50,482 nucleotides of DNA from the IMG/VR virus record IMGVR_UViG_3300037427_002689, positions 1 to 50,482 of that record; one strand, 5' to 3'. The notes under the pieces were generated by a model. That model worked only from the letters and a program-made list of their open reading frames with translations, was not told the origin of the DNA and ran no database searches. The DNA is from a virus. Shown piece by piece: positions 9,940 through 48,241 of the stretch. Numbering within the stretch: the first letter of the stretch is position 1; every line of letters begins with the position of its first letter. Both the position numbers and the translations under genes were made by a program.

Positions 9940-10109
9940 TGCCAAAAAATAAAAAATCATTAGGTTTTAGAATGTCAGATGAGACAGATAAAACTCCTGT
10001 AGAAAAATGGGATATATATCCAAATCATTTATACATACCGGAAGATTATTGGACTGTATCATCAACAGCTGATGAGTTTGATAAAAAGAAAAGAAAAAAG
10101 AAAAAGTGA
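9939..10109 (+). CDS. Small hypothetical protein with lysine tail
   Basis: The frame starts in a TAATG overlap and encodes 56 residues ending in a run of Lys/Arg. The middle (WDIYPNHLYIPEDYWT) is aromatic-rich. Its stop overlaps the GTG start of the Mom-like gene, so the two are probably co-translated. Function unknown. Confidence 0.5.
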   Translation: MPKNKKSLGFRMSDETDKTPVEKWDIYPNHLYIPEDYWTVSSTADEFDKKKRKKKK

Positions 10110-10726
10110 AAGTAACTGATTTCATAGTAGAACCAGTAGAACGAAGAATAATATCTAAGTTCATTGAGAAACATCACTATTCTCACAGTACAAACGGAGT
10201 ACAACATATACAATGTTTTGCTATGTTTCGTGAGGGTAAGTTTGGTTTCGATAAAGAAATGATTGGGGCTGCTATGTATTGTTATCCATCAATGCCAGCT
10301 ACGGCTAAAAAATATAATCCAATTAATCCTGATAGATGTTGGGAGTTAAGAAGATTTGTTTGTATTGATGATACACCAAAAAATGCAGAAAGTTATTTTA
10401 TATCAAAATGTCACAAATGGACAAGACAAAATACTAATATAGAAGTTATTGTTTCATTTGCTGACTTAGAAGAAGGACATAGTGGAGTTATATATAAAGC
10501 AAGTAACTTCCATTATTTAGGACAAACGGGAGCTGGAAGTAAATTAATGGTTGATGGTGTTTTGAGACACAATCGTTCATTAAATCAAAGTAAACGAACA
10601 TTTGGTAGAACTTTAAAAAGAAGGTATCAAGCTGGAGATCCAGATGTGTATCCAGTCAAAACTAAACCAAAGAATATTTATGTTTACTATTTGAATAAAA
10701 AAATCAAGAAGAAATTATTAAAGTGA
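10106..10726 (+). CDS. Mom-like DNA-modification protein (GNAT-like fold), copy 1
   Basis: The 206-residue protein starts at a GTG overlapping the previous stop. Its landmarks are HHYSHS near residue 24, IGAAMYCYP, WELRRFVC and VSFADLEEGHSGVIYKASNF. These are shared, in the same order, with the protein at 20445. The pattern fits phage Mu Mom-type proteins, which modify adenines in phage DNA and shield it from restriction enzymes. Substrate and reaction here are inferred, not shown. It ends in a Lys-rich tail, and a late-promoter-like sequence follows. Confidence 0.65.
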   Translation: MKVTDFIVEPVERRIISKFIEKHHYSHSTNGVQHIQCFAMFREGKFGFDKEMIGAAMYCYPSMPATAKKYNPINPDRCWELRRFVCIDDTPKNAESYFISKCHKWTRQNTNIEVIVSFADLEEGHSGVIYKASNFHYLGQTGAGSKLMVDGVLRHNRSLNQSKRTFGRTLKRRYQAGDPDVYPVKTKPKNIYVYYLNKKIKKKLLK

Positions 10727-10762: not shown

Positions 10763-10793
10763 ATCACAAAAAAGACAGAGGAGAGTGAGAGAA

Positions 10794-12650
10794 ATGGATA
10801 TTTCAACAAAAATATTGTCAGATATTACGGTTTATATGAAGTACGCGAGGTATTTACCTGAAAAGAAAAGAAGAGAAACTTGGAAAGAATTGGTGGAACG
10901 AAACAAACAAATGCACATCAAAAAATATCCAGAATTAAAATCACAAATAGATAAAGCTTACAAATTCGTAACAGATAAAAAAGTATTACCATCAATGAGG
11001 AGTATGCAGTTCGCTGGTAAACCAATTGAAATCTCACCAAACAGAGTTTACAATTGTGCATTTCTACCAATTGATAATTGGCAATCATTTTCGGAAGTAA
11101 TGTTTTTATTATTAGGTGGAACTGGTGTTGGTTATTCAGTTCAACAACATCATGTAGAACAATTACCTGAAATACATTTACCGAACTTTAAAAGAAGAAG
11201 AAGATATTTAATTAGTGATTCAATCGAAGGTTGGGCTGATGCTGTTAAAGTATTAATTAAATCTTATTTCTATGGTGGTTCACATATTCATTTTGACTTT
11301 TCAGATATTCGTCCAAAGGGTGCTGAGTTGGTTACAAGTGGTGGTAAAGCACCAGGTCCTCAACCATTAAAAGAGTGTTTGGTTAAGATAGATGGTATAT
11401 TGGCAACAAAAGAAAATGGAGATAAACTAACTACATTAGAAGTTCATGATATTGTATGTCACATAGCTGATGCTGTGTTAGCTGGTGGGATAAGAAGAGC
11501 TGCTCTGATTGCTCTGTTTTCTGCAGATGATGATTCAATGATTTCATCTAAGTATGGAAATTGGTGGGAAACAAATCCTCAACGAGGGAGAGCAAACAAT
11601 TCAGCTGCTTTGGTTCGTTCTAAAATTACAGAAGAGTTTTTCTTTGAATTATGGGAGAAGATAAAAGCTAGTGGTAGTGGAGAACCAGGTATTTATCTAA
11701 CCAATGATAAAGATTGGGGAACTAATCCTTGTTGTGAAATCGCACTAAGACCATATCAGTTCTGTAATTTAACAGAAGTAAATGTCTCAAATGTTGAATC
11801 ACAAGAAGATTTGAATGAAAGAGTAAAAGCTGGAGCATTCATTGGAACACTACAAGCTGGATTTACAGACTTTCATTATTTAAGGCCTGTATGGCAAAGA
11901 ACAACAGAAAAAGATGCTCTGATTGGAGTATCAATGACTGGTATCGCTTCGAATAAATTAGATGACTTAGATGTTACAGAAGCTGCTAAGGTAGTGAAAG
12001 AAGAAAACAAAAGAGTTGCTGAAATAATTGGAGTGAATCCAGCAGCTAGATGTACAACAGTAAAACCTGCCGGAACAACATCATTAACATTAGGAACATC
12101 AAGTGGTATTCACGCATGGCATAATGACTTTTACATAAGAAGATTAAGGGTTGGAAAGAATGAAGCTATTTATGGATACTTATTAAGAAATCATCCTGAT
12201 TTAGTTGAAGACGAATACTTTAGACCACACGACACTGCTGTTATATCAATTCCACAAAAAGCACCTGAGGGAGCTACAATGAGAACTGAATCAGCATTTC
12301 AATTATTGGAAAGGGTAAAATTCATTAGTGAGAACTATGTTAAAAAAGGACATCGTGGTGGAATGAATACTCACAATGTATCAGCAACAATATCAGTTAA
12401 AGAACACGAGTGGGAAGATATTGGTAAATGGATGTGGAAAAACAAAAATGCTTACAATGGATTAAGTATTCTGCCTTATGATGGTGGAACTTATAAACAA
12501 GCACCATTTGAAGATTGTGAAGAAGCAACTTATGACAAAATGGTGGAAACATTAAAGAACATCAACTTAGCACGAATTACTGAAGAACAAGATGATACCG
12601 ATTTAAAAGGTGAACTTGCTTGTGCTGGTGGTGTTTGTGAAATAGTGTAG
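10794..12650 (+). CDS. nrdJ: Class II (adenosylcobalamin-dependent) ribonucleotide reductase
   Basis: The 618-residue protein resembles the monomeric ribonucleoside-triphosphate reductase of Lactobacillus. Features are PSMRSMQFAGKP, the VYNCAFLP redox Cys region, GGTGVGYSVQ, NPCCEIALRPYQFCNL (active-site loop), the VKPAGTTSL phosphate loop, and a C-terminal CAGGVC pair that would re-reduce the active site. It makes dNTPs without oxygen, using coenzyme B12, so the host must supply cobalamin. It is shorter than the Lactobacillus enzyme (739 aa). I chose ATG 10794 with GAGGAG upstream over a GTG at 10785 that overlaps that site. No class I nrdA/B is seen. Confidence 0.9.
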   Translation: MDISTKILSDITVYMKYARYLPEKKRRETWKELVERNKQMHIKKYPELKSQIDKAYKFVTDKKVLPSMRSMQFAGKPIEISPNRVYNCAFLPIDNWQSFSEVMFLLLGGTGVGYSVQQHHVEQLPEIHLPNFKRRRRYLISDSIEGWADAVKVLIKSYFYGGSHIHFDFSDIRPKGAELVTSGGKAPGPQPLKECLVKIDGILATKENGDKLTTLEVHDIVCHIADAVLAGGIRRAALIALFSADDDSMISSKYGNWWETNPQRGRANNSAALVRSKITEEFFFELWEKIKASGSGEPGIYLTNDKDWGTNPCCEIALRPYQFCNLTEVNVSNVESQEDLNERVKAGAFIGTLQAGFTDFHYLRPVWQRTTEKDALIGVSMTGIASNKLDDLDVTEAAKVVKEENKRVAEIIGVNPAARCTTVKPAGTTSLTLGTSSGIHAWHNDFYIRRLRVGKNEAIYGYLLRNHPDLVEDEYFRPHDTAVISIPQKAPEGATMRTESAFQLLERVKFISENYVKKGHRGGMNTHNVSATISVKEHEWEDIGKWMWKNKNAYNGLSILPYDGGTYKQAPFEDCEEATYDKMVETLKNINLARITEEQDDTDLKGELACAGGVCEIV

Positions 12651-12660
12651 GAGAGGTAAA

Positions 12661-13458
12661 ATGAATACAAAATTATTAATGAGAACATTTAAAGTAATAT
12701 GTTTACTTGGATTGATTCTGATGGTTATGAATAGTTGTAATGATTCAAATCCATTAGCAAACGACCCAAATTTGACACCGATGTCAATGGAACAGCATAC
12801 AATGATGCCAGGTGAATTGCCGTGGCCAATGATTGTAGGTGGAACACAAGTAGACCCAGCGTGTCCTGATTGTAAGTATCCATTTATGGTATCACTTCAA
12901 TCAAGTGGATGGTGGGGTGGACACTTTTGTGGTGGTTCATTAGTCAGAGAAGATTGGGTTGTAACTGCTGCTCATTGTGTTCAAGGTGAAAGTCCAAACA
13001 ATGTAGATGTAGTTATTGGTTTACATAATGTAAATGGTACTACTGGTGACCAAACAAGAGATGTAGTTGAAATAATTATACATCCACAATATAGTAATAA
13101 TTCATTGAATAATGATTATGCATTGTTAAGATTAGATGAACCTATTACAGATTTTGAACCTATACAATTATGTACAGATACTGCACACGATGAAGAACCT
13201 GTAATGTCAACTGTTATGGGTTGGGGAGCAACATCGAGTGGTGGTAATAGTTCTAACTTCTTACTTGAAGTAGATGTTCCTATCGATGATTCTTGTGGTA
13301 ACTACTCTAATTCAGACATAACAAACAATATGATATGTGCTGGAGATGGAAACGGTGGTGAAGACAGTTGTCAAGGAGATTCAGGAGGGCCGTTAATTAT
13401 GACAAATTCCGATGGGGAGTATGAGTTAATCGGTATAGTCAGTTGGGGATATGGTTGA
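12661..13458 (+). CDS. Secreted trypsin-like serine protease lipoprotein, up to an in-frame UGA
   Basis: Residues 1-26 form a lipoprotein signal with a hydrophobic helix and C26 as the likely lipidated Cys. The S1 family domain begins at IVGG (58-61). The catalytic triad is present: His105 (TAAHC), Asp152 (NNDYALL) and Ser241 (GDSGGP). Asp235 at the S1 pocket predicts cleavage after Arg/Lys. Cysteines for the 42-58 and 168-182 disulfides are there, and Cys237 equals trypsin Cys191. Its partner Cys220, in the family sequence WGYGC, is codon 266, which is TGA (13456-13458). The frame then continues for 126 codons. Either the gene is read through or recoded, or it is newly broken or mis-sequenced. 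A protease like this is unusual in a phage and looks acquired. Confidence 0.8.
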   Translation: MNTKLLMRTFKVICLLGLILMVMNSCNDSNPLANDPNLTPMSMEQHTMMPGELPWPMIVGGTQVDPACPDCKYPFMVSLQSSGWWGGHFCGGSLVREDWVVTAAHCVQGESPNNVDVVIGLHNVNGTTGDQTRDVVEIIIHPQYSNNSLNNDYALLRLDEPITDFEPIQLCTDTAHDEEPVMSTVMGWGATSSGGNSSNFLLEVDVPIDDSCGNYSNSDITNNMICAGDGNGGEDSCQGDSGGPLIMTNSDGEYELIGIVSWGYG

Positions 13459-13486
13459 GCGGATGCTCAGTACCCGGGTGTGTACT
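13456..13486 (+). promoter_or_regulatory. UGA with downstream hairpins; possible recoding (SECIS-like) element
   Basis: The UGA itself opens a perfect hairpin, TGAGC-GGAT-GCTCA (13456-13469). Overlapping it by one base is AGTAC-(8 nt)-GTACT (13469-13486), whose loop has GGGT about 18-21 nt after the UGA. That is the distance range of the loop GGU in bacterial selenocysteine insertion elements. The 28 bases after the UGA contain 17 G/C, far above the surrounding AT-rich genes, and use codons such as GCG, CCG and TAC that the phage otherwise seldom uses. Recoding is inferred. Confidence 0.4.
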
Positions 13487-13836
13487 CTAAAATACATAGT
13501 AGATTAAGTTGGTTCTTTGATTACATAGGAGAACCTGAAGATGATTTTGAAGTAGAATTATATGGTGATGTTAACTTTGATGGTGAATTAAATATAACAG
13601 ATGTTATTACATTGATTAACTTTATATTAGGAACAACACCGACAGAGGAAGAAGAATTAACTGCTGATATAAGTCAAGATGGTATTATAAATATACTTGA
13701 TGTGATTCAATTAGTTGGTGAGATATTAGGAACAACATTTACACAATCAGTTCAATGGTTAGAAGAAAACTTTCCACAATTAAATACAAAAAATAGATTA
13801 AGTAAATTAAATAAAGCGATTAACTTCGCTAAATAG
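13459..13836 (+). CDS. In-frame continuation: protease C-terminus plus dockerin-like domain
   Basis: Reading past the UGA gives ADAQYPGVYSKIHSRLSWF, the normal last segment of a trypsin domain, so this is the same protein. It is followed by two dockerin/EF-hand-like repeats: GDVNFDGELNITDVI (DxNxDG calcium loop) and ADISQDGIINILDVI, each with a hydrophobic helix. A short helical tail ends at TAA 13836. Nothing supports independent initiation: a GTG at 13480 lacks a ribosome site. Dockerin-type modules mediate calcium-dependent docking on cell-surface scaffolds. The absence of further stops shows the segment is not decaying. Confidence 0.6.
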   Translation, partial: ADAQYPGVYSKIHSRLSWFFDYIGEPEDDFEVELYGDVNFDGELNITDVITLINFILGTTPTEEEELTADISQDGIINILDVIQLVGEILGTTFTQSVQWLEENFPQLNTKNRLSKLNKAINFAK

Positions 13837-13846
13837 GAGATAGAAA

Positions 13847-14233
13847 ATGGCAAAGAAAATGGATAAACATATTTATTCAGCAAAAGTTGTAAGAGTCGTA
13901 GATGGTGATACAGCAGATGCTATGATTGACTTAGGTTTTGATACTTGGGTTAAAAAAAGAATTAGGTTTTATGGAGTGGATACTTGGGAGTCAAGAACAA
14001 GAAACCTTGAAGAAAAGAAAAAAGGTTTAGCTGCTAAGGATTATGTAAAAGACTTATTAGAAAATTCAGACGAGGGCAAGTTCTTATTAAAATCTCACGG
14101 AGTTGGGAAATACGGACGGGTCCTCGGTGAACTTTTTGTAAAGGGTCACGAAACATCAGTAAATGAATTACTGAAAGAAAATGGACACGCTAGTGCTTAT
14201 TATGGTGGAAAGAAAAAAGTATTCGGGGGATAA
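13847..14233 (+). CDS. Staphylococcal nuclease-like (thermonuclease) protein
   Basis: The 128-residue protein fits the SNase fold. YSAKVVRVVDGDTADAMID has the strand pair with the metal-binding Asp, IRFYGVDTWESR has the conserved Arg/Asp-Glu region, and GKYGRVLGELF has the second Arg block. Such enzymes hydrolyse DNA or RNA using calcium. No signal peptide is visible, so it likely acts inside the cell. The start follows AGGAGA; a second ATG lies four codons in. It abuts the next gene. Confidence 0.85.
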   Translation: MAKKMDKHIYSAKVVRVVDGDTADAMIDLGFDTWVKKRIRFYGVDTWESRTRNLEEKKKGLAAKDYVKDLLENSDEGKFLLKSHGVGKYGRVLGELFVKGHETSVNELLKENGHASAYYGGKKKVFGG

Positions 14234-14644
14234 ATGAGTAAAGGTTCAATAGGTTTTACTTGTAGTTGTTTTGATTTATTACACGCTGGACACATCTTGA
14301 TGTTAAAAGATGCAAGAGAACAATGTGATTATTTAATTGTTGGGTTACAAACAGACCCAACATTAGATAGACCAGAAAAGAATAAACCAATACAATCATT
14401 AGAAGAAAGAAGAATACAATTAGAAGCTGTTAAGTATGTCGATGAAATAAGAGAGTATTCTACAGAATCAGAATTAAGAGATATGTTATGTGAGATATGG
14501 CCTAATGTTAGAATACTTGGTTCAGATTATATAACAAAAGATAACTTTACAGGTTGTAGTTATGACATACCAATTTATTATCACGAAAGAAACCACAATT
14601 ACTCTTCATCAAATTTAAGAAAAGAAATAATAAAAAAAGCTTGA
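14234..14644 (+). CDS. Cytidylyltransferase-like nucleotidyltransferase (TagD/RfaE2 type)
   Basis: The 136-residue protein has the HxGH nucleotide motif in FDLLHAGHILML (HAGH near residue 18) and the second family motif as YSSSNLRK near the C-terminus. This is the length of glycerol-3-phosphate cytidylyltransferases and sugar-phosphate adenylyltransferases. It would activate a small phosphorylated substrate as CDP- or ADP-linked, perhaps for the glycan island at 24-40 kb. Its last codons (KKA and TGA) overlap the -35 of promoter P3. Confidence 0.8.
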   Translation: MSKGSIGFTCSCFDLLHAGHILMLKDAREQCDYLIVGLQTDPTLDRPEKNKPIQSLEERRIQLEAVKYVDEIREYSTESELRDMLCEIWPNVRILGSDYITKDNFTGCSYDIPIYYHERNHNYSSSNLRKEIIKKA

Positions 14645-20254: not shown

Positions 20255-20467
20255 ATGAATCAATTGATACAAGCAGCAATAGATAGTTATCAAGCACAAA
20301 GAACAGAAGCATTAGCTACATTGGATATATTATTCAATGACGCAACAATGATTGGAGAACATACAGATTTACTTAAAGAAGTAAGGAAGTGGACAGAAAG
20401 TTTATCAGAAGCTGAAGAAAACTTAGAAACATTAAAGAGGAACTTTGACTTCAATCAATCCAAATAA
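20255..20467 (+). CDS. Small helical hypothetical protein
   Basis: I chose ATG 20255, after GGGGA, two bases past the upstream stop, giving 70 residues. The sequence is almost wholly helical and acidic with a coiled-coil-like end (LSEAEENLETLKR). Function unknown. It overlaps the next gene's TTG start. Confidence 0.55.
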   Translation: MNQLIQAAIDSYQAQRTEALATLDILFNDATMIGEHTDLLKEVRKWTESLSEAEENLETLKRNFDFNQSK

Positions 20468-21203
20468 AATAACCATTAGAGAAATATCAAAAAAGATAGC
20501 TAAGGATATGATTGTGAAAAATCATTATAGTCACAAGTGGACATCTTGTAGATATGCTTTAGGTATCTTTTATGAAACAGATAACGAACATTCATTCTTT
20601 GATGAGAAAGATGAGAAGTTAGCTGGTGTTGCTATCTATGGTTATCCTGTTGGAAGAAGTGCTCCTAAATCCATTTCACCTGAGTTAAAGGAAGAAGAAG
20701 TATTGGAGTTAACAAGGTTATTTATCTTTGATGATTACGGAAAGAATACAGAAAGTGTAGTTCTATCCAAAACATTCAATTGGTTAAAGGAAAATGCTAG
20801 TGATATAAAAGTATTAGTATCCTATTCTGATCCAGAACAAGGACACTTGGGTATTATTTATCAAGCAACGAATTGGATATATCAAGGTAATAGTATTCGA
20901 CTAATGCCCAATTATGCTATACGACTTACAGAAGATGGTACTTGGATGCATTCACGAAATGTTACGACAAAGTTTGGTTCTCATAATTTAGAGAAATTAA
21001 AGAAAAGAATCGGACATACATTTTGGAGAAAAGAAGAACCTGAGAAACACAGATATTTATATCTGTTATGTAGTAAAAAAGATAAAAAGAAAATTATGAA
21101 TACATTGATACACGAATCAAAACCATATCCAAAAGACGCATATCAATTCTTTCCAGAGATACAGAAGATTGAAGTAGAATCAAAGGAGAAATTTTATGAA
21201 TAA
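20445..21203 (+). CDS. Mom-like DNA-modification protein, copy 2
   Basis: The 252-residue protein shares its core with the protein at 10106: NHYSHKW at 27-33, LAGVAIYGYPVG, LELTRLFIFDD, and VSYSDPEQGHLGIIYQATNW. This is the fold and motif order of Mu Mom-type proteins. It is about 45 residues longer at the C-terminus. The start is probably the TTG at 20445, four bases behind AAGAGG. The next ATG (20508) would remove the first strand. The neighbours are a DUF1599 protein and an ATP-grasp ligase. Activity on phage DNA is inferred. Confidence 0.65.
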   Translation: MTSINPNKITIREISKKIAKDMIVKNHYSHKWTSCRYALGIFYETDNEHSFFDEKDEKLAGVAIYGYPVGRSAPKSISPELKEEEVLELTRLFIFDDYGKNTESVVLSKTFNWLKENASDIKVLVSYSDPEQGHLGIIYQATNWIYQGNSIRLMPNYAIRLTEDGTWMHSRNVTTKFGSHNLEKLKKRIGHTFWRKEEPEKHRYLYLLCSKKDKKKIMNTLIHESKPYPKDAYQFFPEIQKIEVESKEKFYE

Positions 21204-43252: not shown

Positions 43253-43325
43253 GGGGCTGTAACTCAGTTGGGAGAGTGCTTCCCTTGCACGGAAGAAGTC
43301 GCAGGTTCGAATCCTGTCAGCTCCA
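43253..43325 (+). tRNA. tRNA-Ala (anticodon UGC)
   Basis: The 73-base sequence folds as a full cloverleaf. The acceptor GGGGCTG pairs with CAGCTCC (one G-U). The anticodon stem is CTTCC/GGAAG with loop CTTGCAC, so the anticodon is TGC. The T arm is GCAGG-TTCGAAT-CCTGT and the discriminator is A. The 3' CCA is not encoded (CAC follows). The D-loop has AGTTGGGA with the GG pair. Confidence 0.95.
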
Positions 43326-43333
43326 CACCTCAT

Positions 43334-45634: not shown

Positions 45635-46981
45635 ATGAACTACACAACAACTACAAACGGAGCAGTAACAAACCAAACCTCTGGTAAACAATGTCTTGAC
45701 TTATTCCAACGAATTGGAAATATGAGACATCGTGATAGACTTCATATCCTTGAAAATTTTGAACAAGCGTATATAGACGATAAAGAATTAGCAACACAAA
45801 TATTATTTTGGGCGAGAGCTGCAAGAGTTGGTTCAGGTGAGAGAAAAACTTTCCACACTGTATTAAGTGAAATTGGGAAGACATCTCCTGAGTTTATTTC
45901 AGATAATGCCAAAACTATTGCAGACTTAGGGTATTGGAAAGATCTTATTAGTTATCTTGATATTCCTAAAGTTGTTTCTACATTCGCCCAAGCAATTCGT
46001 GATGAGGATAGGTTAGCTTGTAAATGGGCCCCAAGAAAGTGTGCGGTTTTACGAGATGAGTTAGGATGGACTAATAAACAATACAGAAAATGGTTAAAGG
46101 TTCATTCTGAAACTGTTGAACAAAAGATGTCTGAAAAGAGTTGGAGTGACATCAACTATTCATCTGTACCAGGTTCTGCTATGAGGAGATATAGTGGAGC
46201 ATTTACTACACAAGATAGTAAAAGGTTTGATGAATGGAAAGATGACAAGACAAGTAAGGCATCTGTATCTGCTACCTATCCACACGAAGTGTTAAAATGT
46301 AATGATTCCAAATTGGCTGATAAACTATGGAATAACTTACCTGATTTATTATCAGAGAGTGATGAAAACATTCTACCTATGATTGATGTAAGTGGTAGTA
46401 TGTATGGAGAACCATTGGCAATAGCAACATCATTAGGTATGTATTTATCTGAAAGAACCAAAGGTGAGTTTAAAGATATGTTCTTAACATTTAGTGAGAA
46501 TCCAGAGTTAGTAAAATTACAAGGTGATTCAGTAATGGAAAGATTAAGTAGAATAGCAAATGCAGATTGGGGTATGAGTACAGACTTTACTAAAGCATAC
46601 CAACATATATTAGATGTTGCAGTTAAACACGATGTAGTACCTGAATCAATGCCAAGTATGTTATTGGTATTATCAGATATGCAGTTTAATCATTCACAGA
46701 GAGATGTGACACACTTTACTCATATGAAAGAAGTATATGAAAAAGCTGGATATGAATTACCAAAAATAGTATTTTGGAACTTGGATGCGGAAATGGGAAC
46801 ACCAGCGAGATGTGATGATGATTCAGTAGCTATGGTTAGTGGATTTTCACCAAGTATTATGAAAGCAATATTAAATGCAGAAGAATTTACACCAATGGAT
46901 GTAATGTTAGAAGCATTGAAACCAATAGAATTAAATTATATCAATTTACCTGAAGATTTTTCGTATGTTTCAGAAATTTGA
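45635..46981 (+). CDS. Ro/TROVE-like protein (DUF2828 type) with vWA domain
   Basis: The 448-residue protein has a helical-repeat N-domain (about 15-240) with VGSGERKTFHTVL, LGYWKDLISYL and LACKWAPRKCA. A von Willebrand A domain follows, with a full metal site: D251-V-S-G-S-M, STDFTKAY (Thr) and LVLSDMQF (Asp). HEAT-like repeats plus vWA is the layout of Ro60/Rsr proteins, which form a ring that binds misfolded and Y RNAs. The motif set fits DUF2828. It has its own promoter P6 and is followed by structured non-coding sequence, as bacterial rsr genes often are. RNA binding is inferred. It ends in TGA. Confidence 0.75.
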   Translation: MNYTTTTNGAVTNQTSGKQCLDLFQRIGNMRHRDRLHILENFEQAYIDDKELATQILFWARAARVGSGERKTFHTVLSEIGKTSPEFISDNAKTIADLGYWKDLISYLDIPKVVSTFAQAIRDEDRLACKWAPRKCAVLRDELGWTNKQYRKWLKVHSETVEQKMSEKSWSDINYSSVPGSAMRRYSGAFTTQDSKRFDEWKDDKTSKASVSATYPHEVLKCNDSKLADKLWNNLPDLLSESDENILPMIDVSGSMYGEPLAIATSLGMYLSERTKGEFKDMFLTFSENPELVKLQGDSVMERLSRIANADWGMSTDFTKAYQHILDVAVKHDVVPESMPSMLLVLSDMQFNHSQRDVTHFTHMKEVYEKAGYELPKIVFWNLDAEMGTPARCDDDSVAMVSGFSPSIMKAILNAEEFTPMDVMLEALKPIELNYINLPEDFSYVSEI

Positions 46982-48024: not shown

Positions 48025-48241
48025 AATCATTAATTTAAAAACAGGAAGAGAAGTAGAGTATCCTAAAAAGGTATACAGTACCTGTTCCATATGTAGTAGT
48101 CCATTTGTTTATGATGAAGAGGGTGGAGTTACAGGTGGAGCTATTGGTATGGTTCCTGTTAACTTTTGTCCATACTGTTTAAGTGGTGTATTGGATATGA
48201 CTAAACAAATGTTAGGGATACAAGATGACGAAGACGCTTGA
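48017..48241 (+). CDS. Small zinc-ribbon protein
   Basis: The 74-residue protein has CSIC and, about 28 residues later, CPYC, a zinc ribbon with a Gly-rich loop (EEGGVTGGAIGM) between. It overlaps both neighbours. Unknown function. Confidence 0.6.
   Translation: MTKIINLKTGREVEYPKKVYSTCSICSSPFVYDEEGGVTGGAIGMVPVNFCPYCLSGVLDMTKQMLGIQDDEDA

Follow-up and report, generated by a model that had tools for sequence, protein, structure and literature searches.

The window analysed here is a virus record of 50,482 bases with 31% G+C. It carries the phage replication genes RecA, DnaB helicase, 5'-3' exonuclease, PolB and ribonucleotide reductase. At 12661-13836 on the plus strand lies the gene of interest, which encodes a trypsin-like lipoprotein. 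Its frame is open for 391 codons and closed by a TAG stop, save for one TGA at codon 266 (13456-13458), exactly as an earlier note on this DNA had described. The gene stands in conserved synteny between a ribonucleotide reductase gene (phrog_367; 10785-12650, plus strand) and a gene for an SNase-like nuclease (13847-14233, plus strand). The ribonucleotide reductase next to the trypsin reaches 86-94% identity in some relatives and only 26-28% in others at this place, as if two types replaced each other. Elsewhere the window holds two Mom-like DNA modification genes (10106-10726 and 20445-21203; Pfam Mom 3.7e-38, phrog_1384 3.8e-54), a protein with DUF7788 and DUF2828 domains (45635-46981) and a sole tRNA, tRNA-Ala (TGC), at 43253-43326.

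All parts of the protein are encoded on the plus strand. A probable lipoprotein signal peptide, judged from the sequence only, spans 12661-12738 and ends at Cys26 (MNSC). The trypsin (S1) domain occupies residues 58-289 (12832-13527), and the Pfam Trypsin match (5.7e-60, residues 68-284) runs across the TGA. The His-Asp-Ser triad is formed by H105, D152 and S241, the last within GDSGGP, and the S1-pocket Asp is D235. Alignment with solved trypsins matches codon 266 to the Cys of SWGYGCA (Cys220) and C237 (13369-13371) to the Cys of DSCQGDSGGP (Cys191), which is the partner expected for residue 220; this confirms where the earlier note had placed the TGA and its partner. The frame after the TGA had been described as intact, with the end of the trypsin and two dockerin-like repeats, and Pfam agrees: besides Trypsin it detects Dockerin_1 (1.5e-10) over residues 301-352 (13561-13716), a dockerin type I domain of two repeats. 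An NCBI model for an Omp28-related selenoprotein also matches the dockerin tail weakly (E 2.5e-4). The triad, the S1 Asp and the other disulfide cysteines are all conserved, so the protein is expected to be an active protease with trypsin specificity. A CPxC motif at residues 68-71 (12862-12873), just past the mature N-terminus, is nearly invariant in the family and possibly represents an extra redox pair. The AlphaFold model of the protein was poor (mean pLDDT 51) and was set aside.

In the rest of the window TGA acts as a normal stop. It terminates 9 of the 55 ORFs, including those ending at 14644, 18878 and 46981, and a 74-aa ORF ends with TGA at 48241; the earlier note had listed these four positions, and each was verified. 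A recoded genetic code was ruled out by the count of 9 in 55.

Scanning 2.9 million viral contigs yielded a non-redundant set of 31 sequences that span the site at 60-100% identity and include the window. Codon 266 is TGA in 17 of them, coming from many samples, and TGT (Cys) in 14; TAA or TAG never occurs there, and no further stop was found within the match. In the bacterial homologues (about 90 copies, 32-47% identity) the codon is TGT or TGC in every case. The in-frame UGA is aligned with Cys in homologues, the pattern by which a bacterial selenoprotein is recognised. TGA and Cys forms are intermixed on a DNA tree of the relatives built without codons 262-280. The best tree has 7 state changes, and supported branches force at least 4. 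A sign test on independent pairs from this tree had four pairs (p 0.125) and was underpowered. Two observations in relatives had been named beforehand as evidence against a selenoprotein. Extra lesions of the frame are absent from the match in all 31 sequences. For Cys codons at the site the outcome is mixed, with TGT in 14 phage sequences and TGA in 17. In our view this mixture does not refute the selenoprotein, since the hairpin goes with the TGA. A mixture of Sec and Cys forms is the usual pattern of selenoprotein families.

The SECIS-like hairpin, which is GC-rich and closely follows the TGA, lies at 13469-13486 on the plus strand, with its stem at 13469-13473/13482-13486, an inner pair at 13475-13480 and the loop GGGU at 13476-13479, and the spacing from UGA to loop is 17 nt. 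With the U of UGA as the start of the count, columns 14-18 are paired with 27-31 in 17/17 TGA forms, and full pairing occurs in register 0 only. Two of these pairs covary in the TGA forms, pair 15-30 being G-C in 13 and A-U in 4, and pair 18-27 being C-G in 15 and U-A in 2. Because both fall on third codon positions, the exchanges are synonymous. Positions 20-25, the inner C-G, close a loop RGGN at 21-24. In the Cys forms, 15-30 is paired in 6 of 14 and there is no covariation. For the rows placed on the tree, a Watson-Crick stem is present in 15/15 TGA rows against 1/12 Cys rows. The structure is kept by compensatory change where the codon is TGA and is almost wholly lacking in the Cys forms.

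Randomisation of synonymous codons produced the stem in a mean of 2.75 and a maximum of 9 of the 17 sequences over 5000 trials, compared with 17/17 observed. TGA forms have a GC3 of 0.60 across codons 267-276, where Cys forms have 0.15, and the remainder of the gene has 0.16. Both comparisons treat related sequences as independent and are not strict probabilities. The published bSECIS rules cover spacing, stem length, loop G and an energy of -7.5 kcal/mol or lower (PMC13188914). The hairpin agrees with their geometry, having the 17 nt spacing, G at the first two loop positions and a 5-bp stem plus the inner C-G. With the stem imposed on the whole region, the energy is -8.5 in the window and -3.8 to -12.3 in the TGA relatives, so that part of the family reaches -7.5 kcal/mol; the stem alone contributes just -1.4 to -3.3 kcal/mol. 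Unconstrained folding of single sequences gives the hairpin no preference (z about -0.4), and other folds compete with it; as a test such folding told little, and covariation and synonymous randomisation took its place. A sliding-window analysis of synonymous divergence does not single out codons 267-277 as unusually invariant, since compensation lets the stem vary; codon choice gave the clearer signal.

A second gene with an in-frame UGA was found in this phage group. The 113-kb record G209, which is the phage of contig L004, encodes a thioredoxin (Pfam 5.7e-22) with the active site WUGPC, where U is TGA (L170:15079-15423, equal to G209:35079-35423; also in L011, L167 and L243-L247). Immediately downstream of it are a gp32-like gene and RecA. 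The TGA is present at the first active-site Cys in all 8 distinct close viral homologues (47-99% identity), and a TGA-trypsin and a TGA-thioredoxin occur together on four contigs, those of L008, L011, L030 and L036. Hairpins of the type TTGAGC-AGGT-GCTCAA follow the thioredoxin TGA in most of the eight sequences, with a clear excess over synonymous shuffles in 4/8 only. We infer that this thioredoxin represents another selenoprotein family of phages. As read-through genes in these phages, only the trypsin and the thioredoxin stood out; further conserved TGA sites, judged by eye, were short or antisense frames without support.

The same record carries a canonical tRNA-Sec with anticodon UCA (RF01852, 69.4 bits against a cut-off of 47; L166:1501-1595, G209:103633), flanked by PNKP-phosphatase and CobT-like genes in phage-type surroundings. 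Of the records searched, G209 is the one relative with its own tRNA-Sec, and its trypsin is the Cys form; a second, different trypsin-like protease (Trypsin_2) is encoded at L174:7885-8709. In the other 19 records searched, many of which are fragments, tRNA-Sec matches were below the cut-off, and the window, searched for both, holds neither a tRNA-Sec nor a Sec-thioredoxin. Canonical tRNA-Sec genes (73-82 bits) were also seen at L196:1240, L209:3379, L211:3376 and L238:10734, in viral-classed contigs that may be prophage, phage or host DNA. Ordinary-length UCA tRNAs occur at L192:4402-4477 and L195:2009-2084 and on L197, L222, L223, L229 and L237. ARAGORN labels them tRNA-SeC; they match the general tRNA model and were rejected as tRNA-Sec, and they are possibly UGA suppressors.

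The phage tRNA-Sec was also compared with bacterial genomes of three phyla. Its best match is in the phylum of the 'FCB group bacterium', with hits in 25 of 245 genomes and a top identity of 79% (E 4.8e-13, genome G151). The phylum of a Flavobacteriales genome gave none in 296 genomes, and a third phylum gave 7 in 198 (best 2e-6). As only three phyla were compared, the proposed host in the 'FCB group bacterium' phylum, whose features are possibly those of Marinimicrobia (SAR406), is a lead. selA, selB, selC and selD are present in this phylum; selD often has an in-frame TGA of its own, as in G151, where it has one and where selA adjoins selB. The earlier note had made the case depend in part on a host with these four genes, and the candidate phylum, if it is indeed that of the host, would supply all of them. 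The dockerin tail is matched in 139/245 genomes of the phylum, with dozens of candidates in small genomes around G151. A search of the phylum for the trypsin returned one distant Cys form only.

Taken together, these observations make it very probable that the locus is a phage-borne selenoprotein gene, with selenocysteine inserted at UGA266 through host SelB and the hairpin. The earlier note's preference for a selenoprotein is upheld by the interchange of TGA and Cys and by the TGA-linked hairpin with its compensatory synonymous changes, and further by the second Sec-type gene, the phage tRNA-Sec and a candidate host phylum with selA-selD. During infection, host SelB carrying Sec-tRNASec would bind the hairpin just 3' of UGA266, selenocysteine would enter at the Cys220 position, and the ribosome would complete the trypsin fold and go on through the dockerin tail. 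Its product would be a serine protease, secreted and anchored by lipid, whose Sec220 and Cys191 may be joined in a selenenylsulfide bridge next to the S1 specificity pocket. Most likely, this bridge would keep the active enzyme stable in the oxidised envelope or make its activity redox-sensitive. The selenium machinery would come from the host, with at least one relative phage adding its own tRNA-Sec. Because Cys works in close relatives, Sec would be an adjustable advantage rather than a requirement. Candidates for this advantage are faster oxidative folding, a more stable bridge and redox-set activity. A surface role for the protease, based on the leader and the dockerin, is a guess; its targets might lie on the surface of the host, on rivals or among seawater proteins.

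The same UGA could be read by dedicated decoding but with cysteine as the residue inserted, for example by a Cys-charged UCA tRNA. The alternative residue at the site is always Cys, and ordinary-length UCA tRNAs exist on some viral contigs (L192 and L195), both of which fit this reading. Nevertheless, we consider it very improbable: the hairpin that tracks TGA is of the SelB type, a full canonical tRNA-Sec exists in this phage group, selA, selB and selD are found in the candidate host phylum, and the second UGA replaces the catalytic first Cys of a thioredoxin in the classical UxxC motif.

Slightly lower still we rate the proposal that UGA266 is mainly a regulated stop, with a useful 265-residue protease as the main product and leaky or selenium-dependent read-through giving a minor extended form. 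Decoding of Sec generally competes with termination, and a GTG start is available downstream of the TGA at 13480. Truncation, on the other hand, would cost the protein Cys220, the dockerin and the final strand and terminal helix of the S1 fold. This stretch is conserved in frame, and every Cys relative has it without interruption. Finally, a sequencing error or decaying pseudogene is hardly credible. A single change of TGT or TGC to TGA would suffice for it, and the earlier note had held such a mutation or a sequencing error to be the main alternative. It was ruled out because 17 non-redundant sequences, drawn from many samples, share this TGA and have no further stop or lesion; the hairpin, too, would be left unexplained.

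Beyond selenocysteine insertion at codon 266, a broader picture can be drawn, which we offer tentatively and consider rather doubtful as a whole. A marine phage lineage may run its own selenium programme, with a Sec-thioredoxin by the replication genes, a Sec-trypsin at the cell surface, sometimes a tRNA-Sec, repeated switching of the trypsin between Sec and Cys, and a Sec220-Cys191 redox switch on protease activity.

The findings point to a little-known use of selenium by bacterial viruses and would extend selenoproteins to bacteriophages, with a tRNA-Sec within the same group. Standard annotation would end the gene at the UGA, and such phage genes have therefore probably been missed. The Sec and Cys versions in close relatives form a natural series in which the gain from selenium in the disulfide of a non-redox protease is testable.

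Several known systems share parts of this arrangement. The phage trypsin has the triad, S1-pocket Asp and disulfide pattern of S1 serine proteases, and differs from them in the Sec predicted to replace Cys220, the lipoprotein leader and the dockerin tail. Bacterial Trx-like UxxC selenoproteins, abundant in ocean data, carry Sec in place of the redox motif's first Cys, as is predicted for the phage thioredoxin; the latter is phage-borne and lies beside gp32-like and RecA genes. UCA tRNAs annotated as tRNA-Sec have been described in Basilisk-like Bacillus phages (PMC6145125) and wastewater huge phages (PMC10747093), with no matching Sec-coding gene named in the portions of these reports available to us. 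G209, in contrast, has a canonical RF01852 tRNA-Sec in a phage with a UGA thioredoxin. The glutathione peroxidases of the poxviruses Molluscum contagiosum and fowlpox are likewise viral selenoprotein genes from a cellular family (PMC8310308), although they belong to animal viruses and the eukaryotic Sec system, and the protein and decoding signals are unrelated.

The closest counterpart is a trypsin-like serine protease selenoprotein family predicted in 2008 from Global Ocean Sampling (GOS) reads by Zhang and Gladyshev (PMC2398784). It comprised 9 reads with no organism assigned, and the text is silent on phages (PMC2398784). A 2022 review gives no accession for the family, neither that review nor one of 2026 places a trypsin-like selenoprotein in phages, and our search, made without subscription journals and preprints, found no paper naming a phage selenoprotein. 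Within the searchable literature, the phage location appears to be new. Like the phage trypsin, the GOS family is marine, has a predicted Sec at a conserved Cys of the trypsin domain with a predicted bacterial SECIS, and includes Sec and Cys forms (PMC2398784). On this likeness of description, a known orphan selenoprotein family would be placed in phages together with its decoding parts. To a family formerly known from nine anonymous ocean reads alone, the phage trypsin would add phage genomes, gene neighbours, a phylogeny and the covariation of the hairpin.
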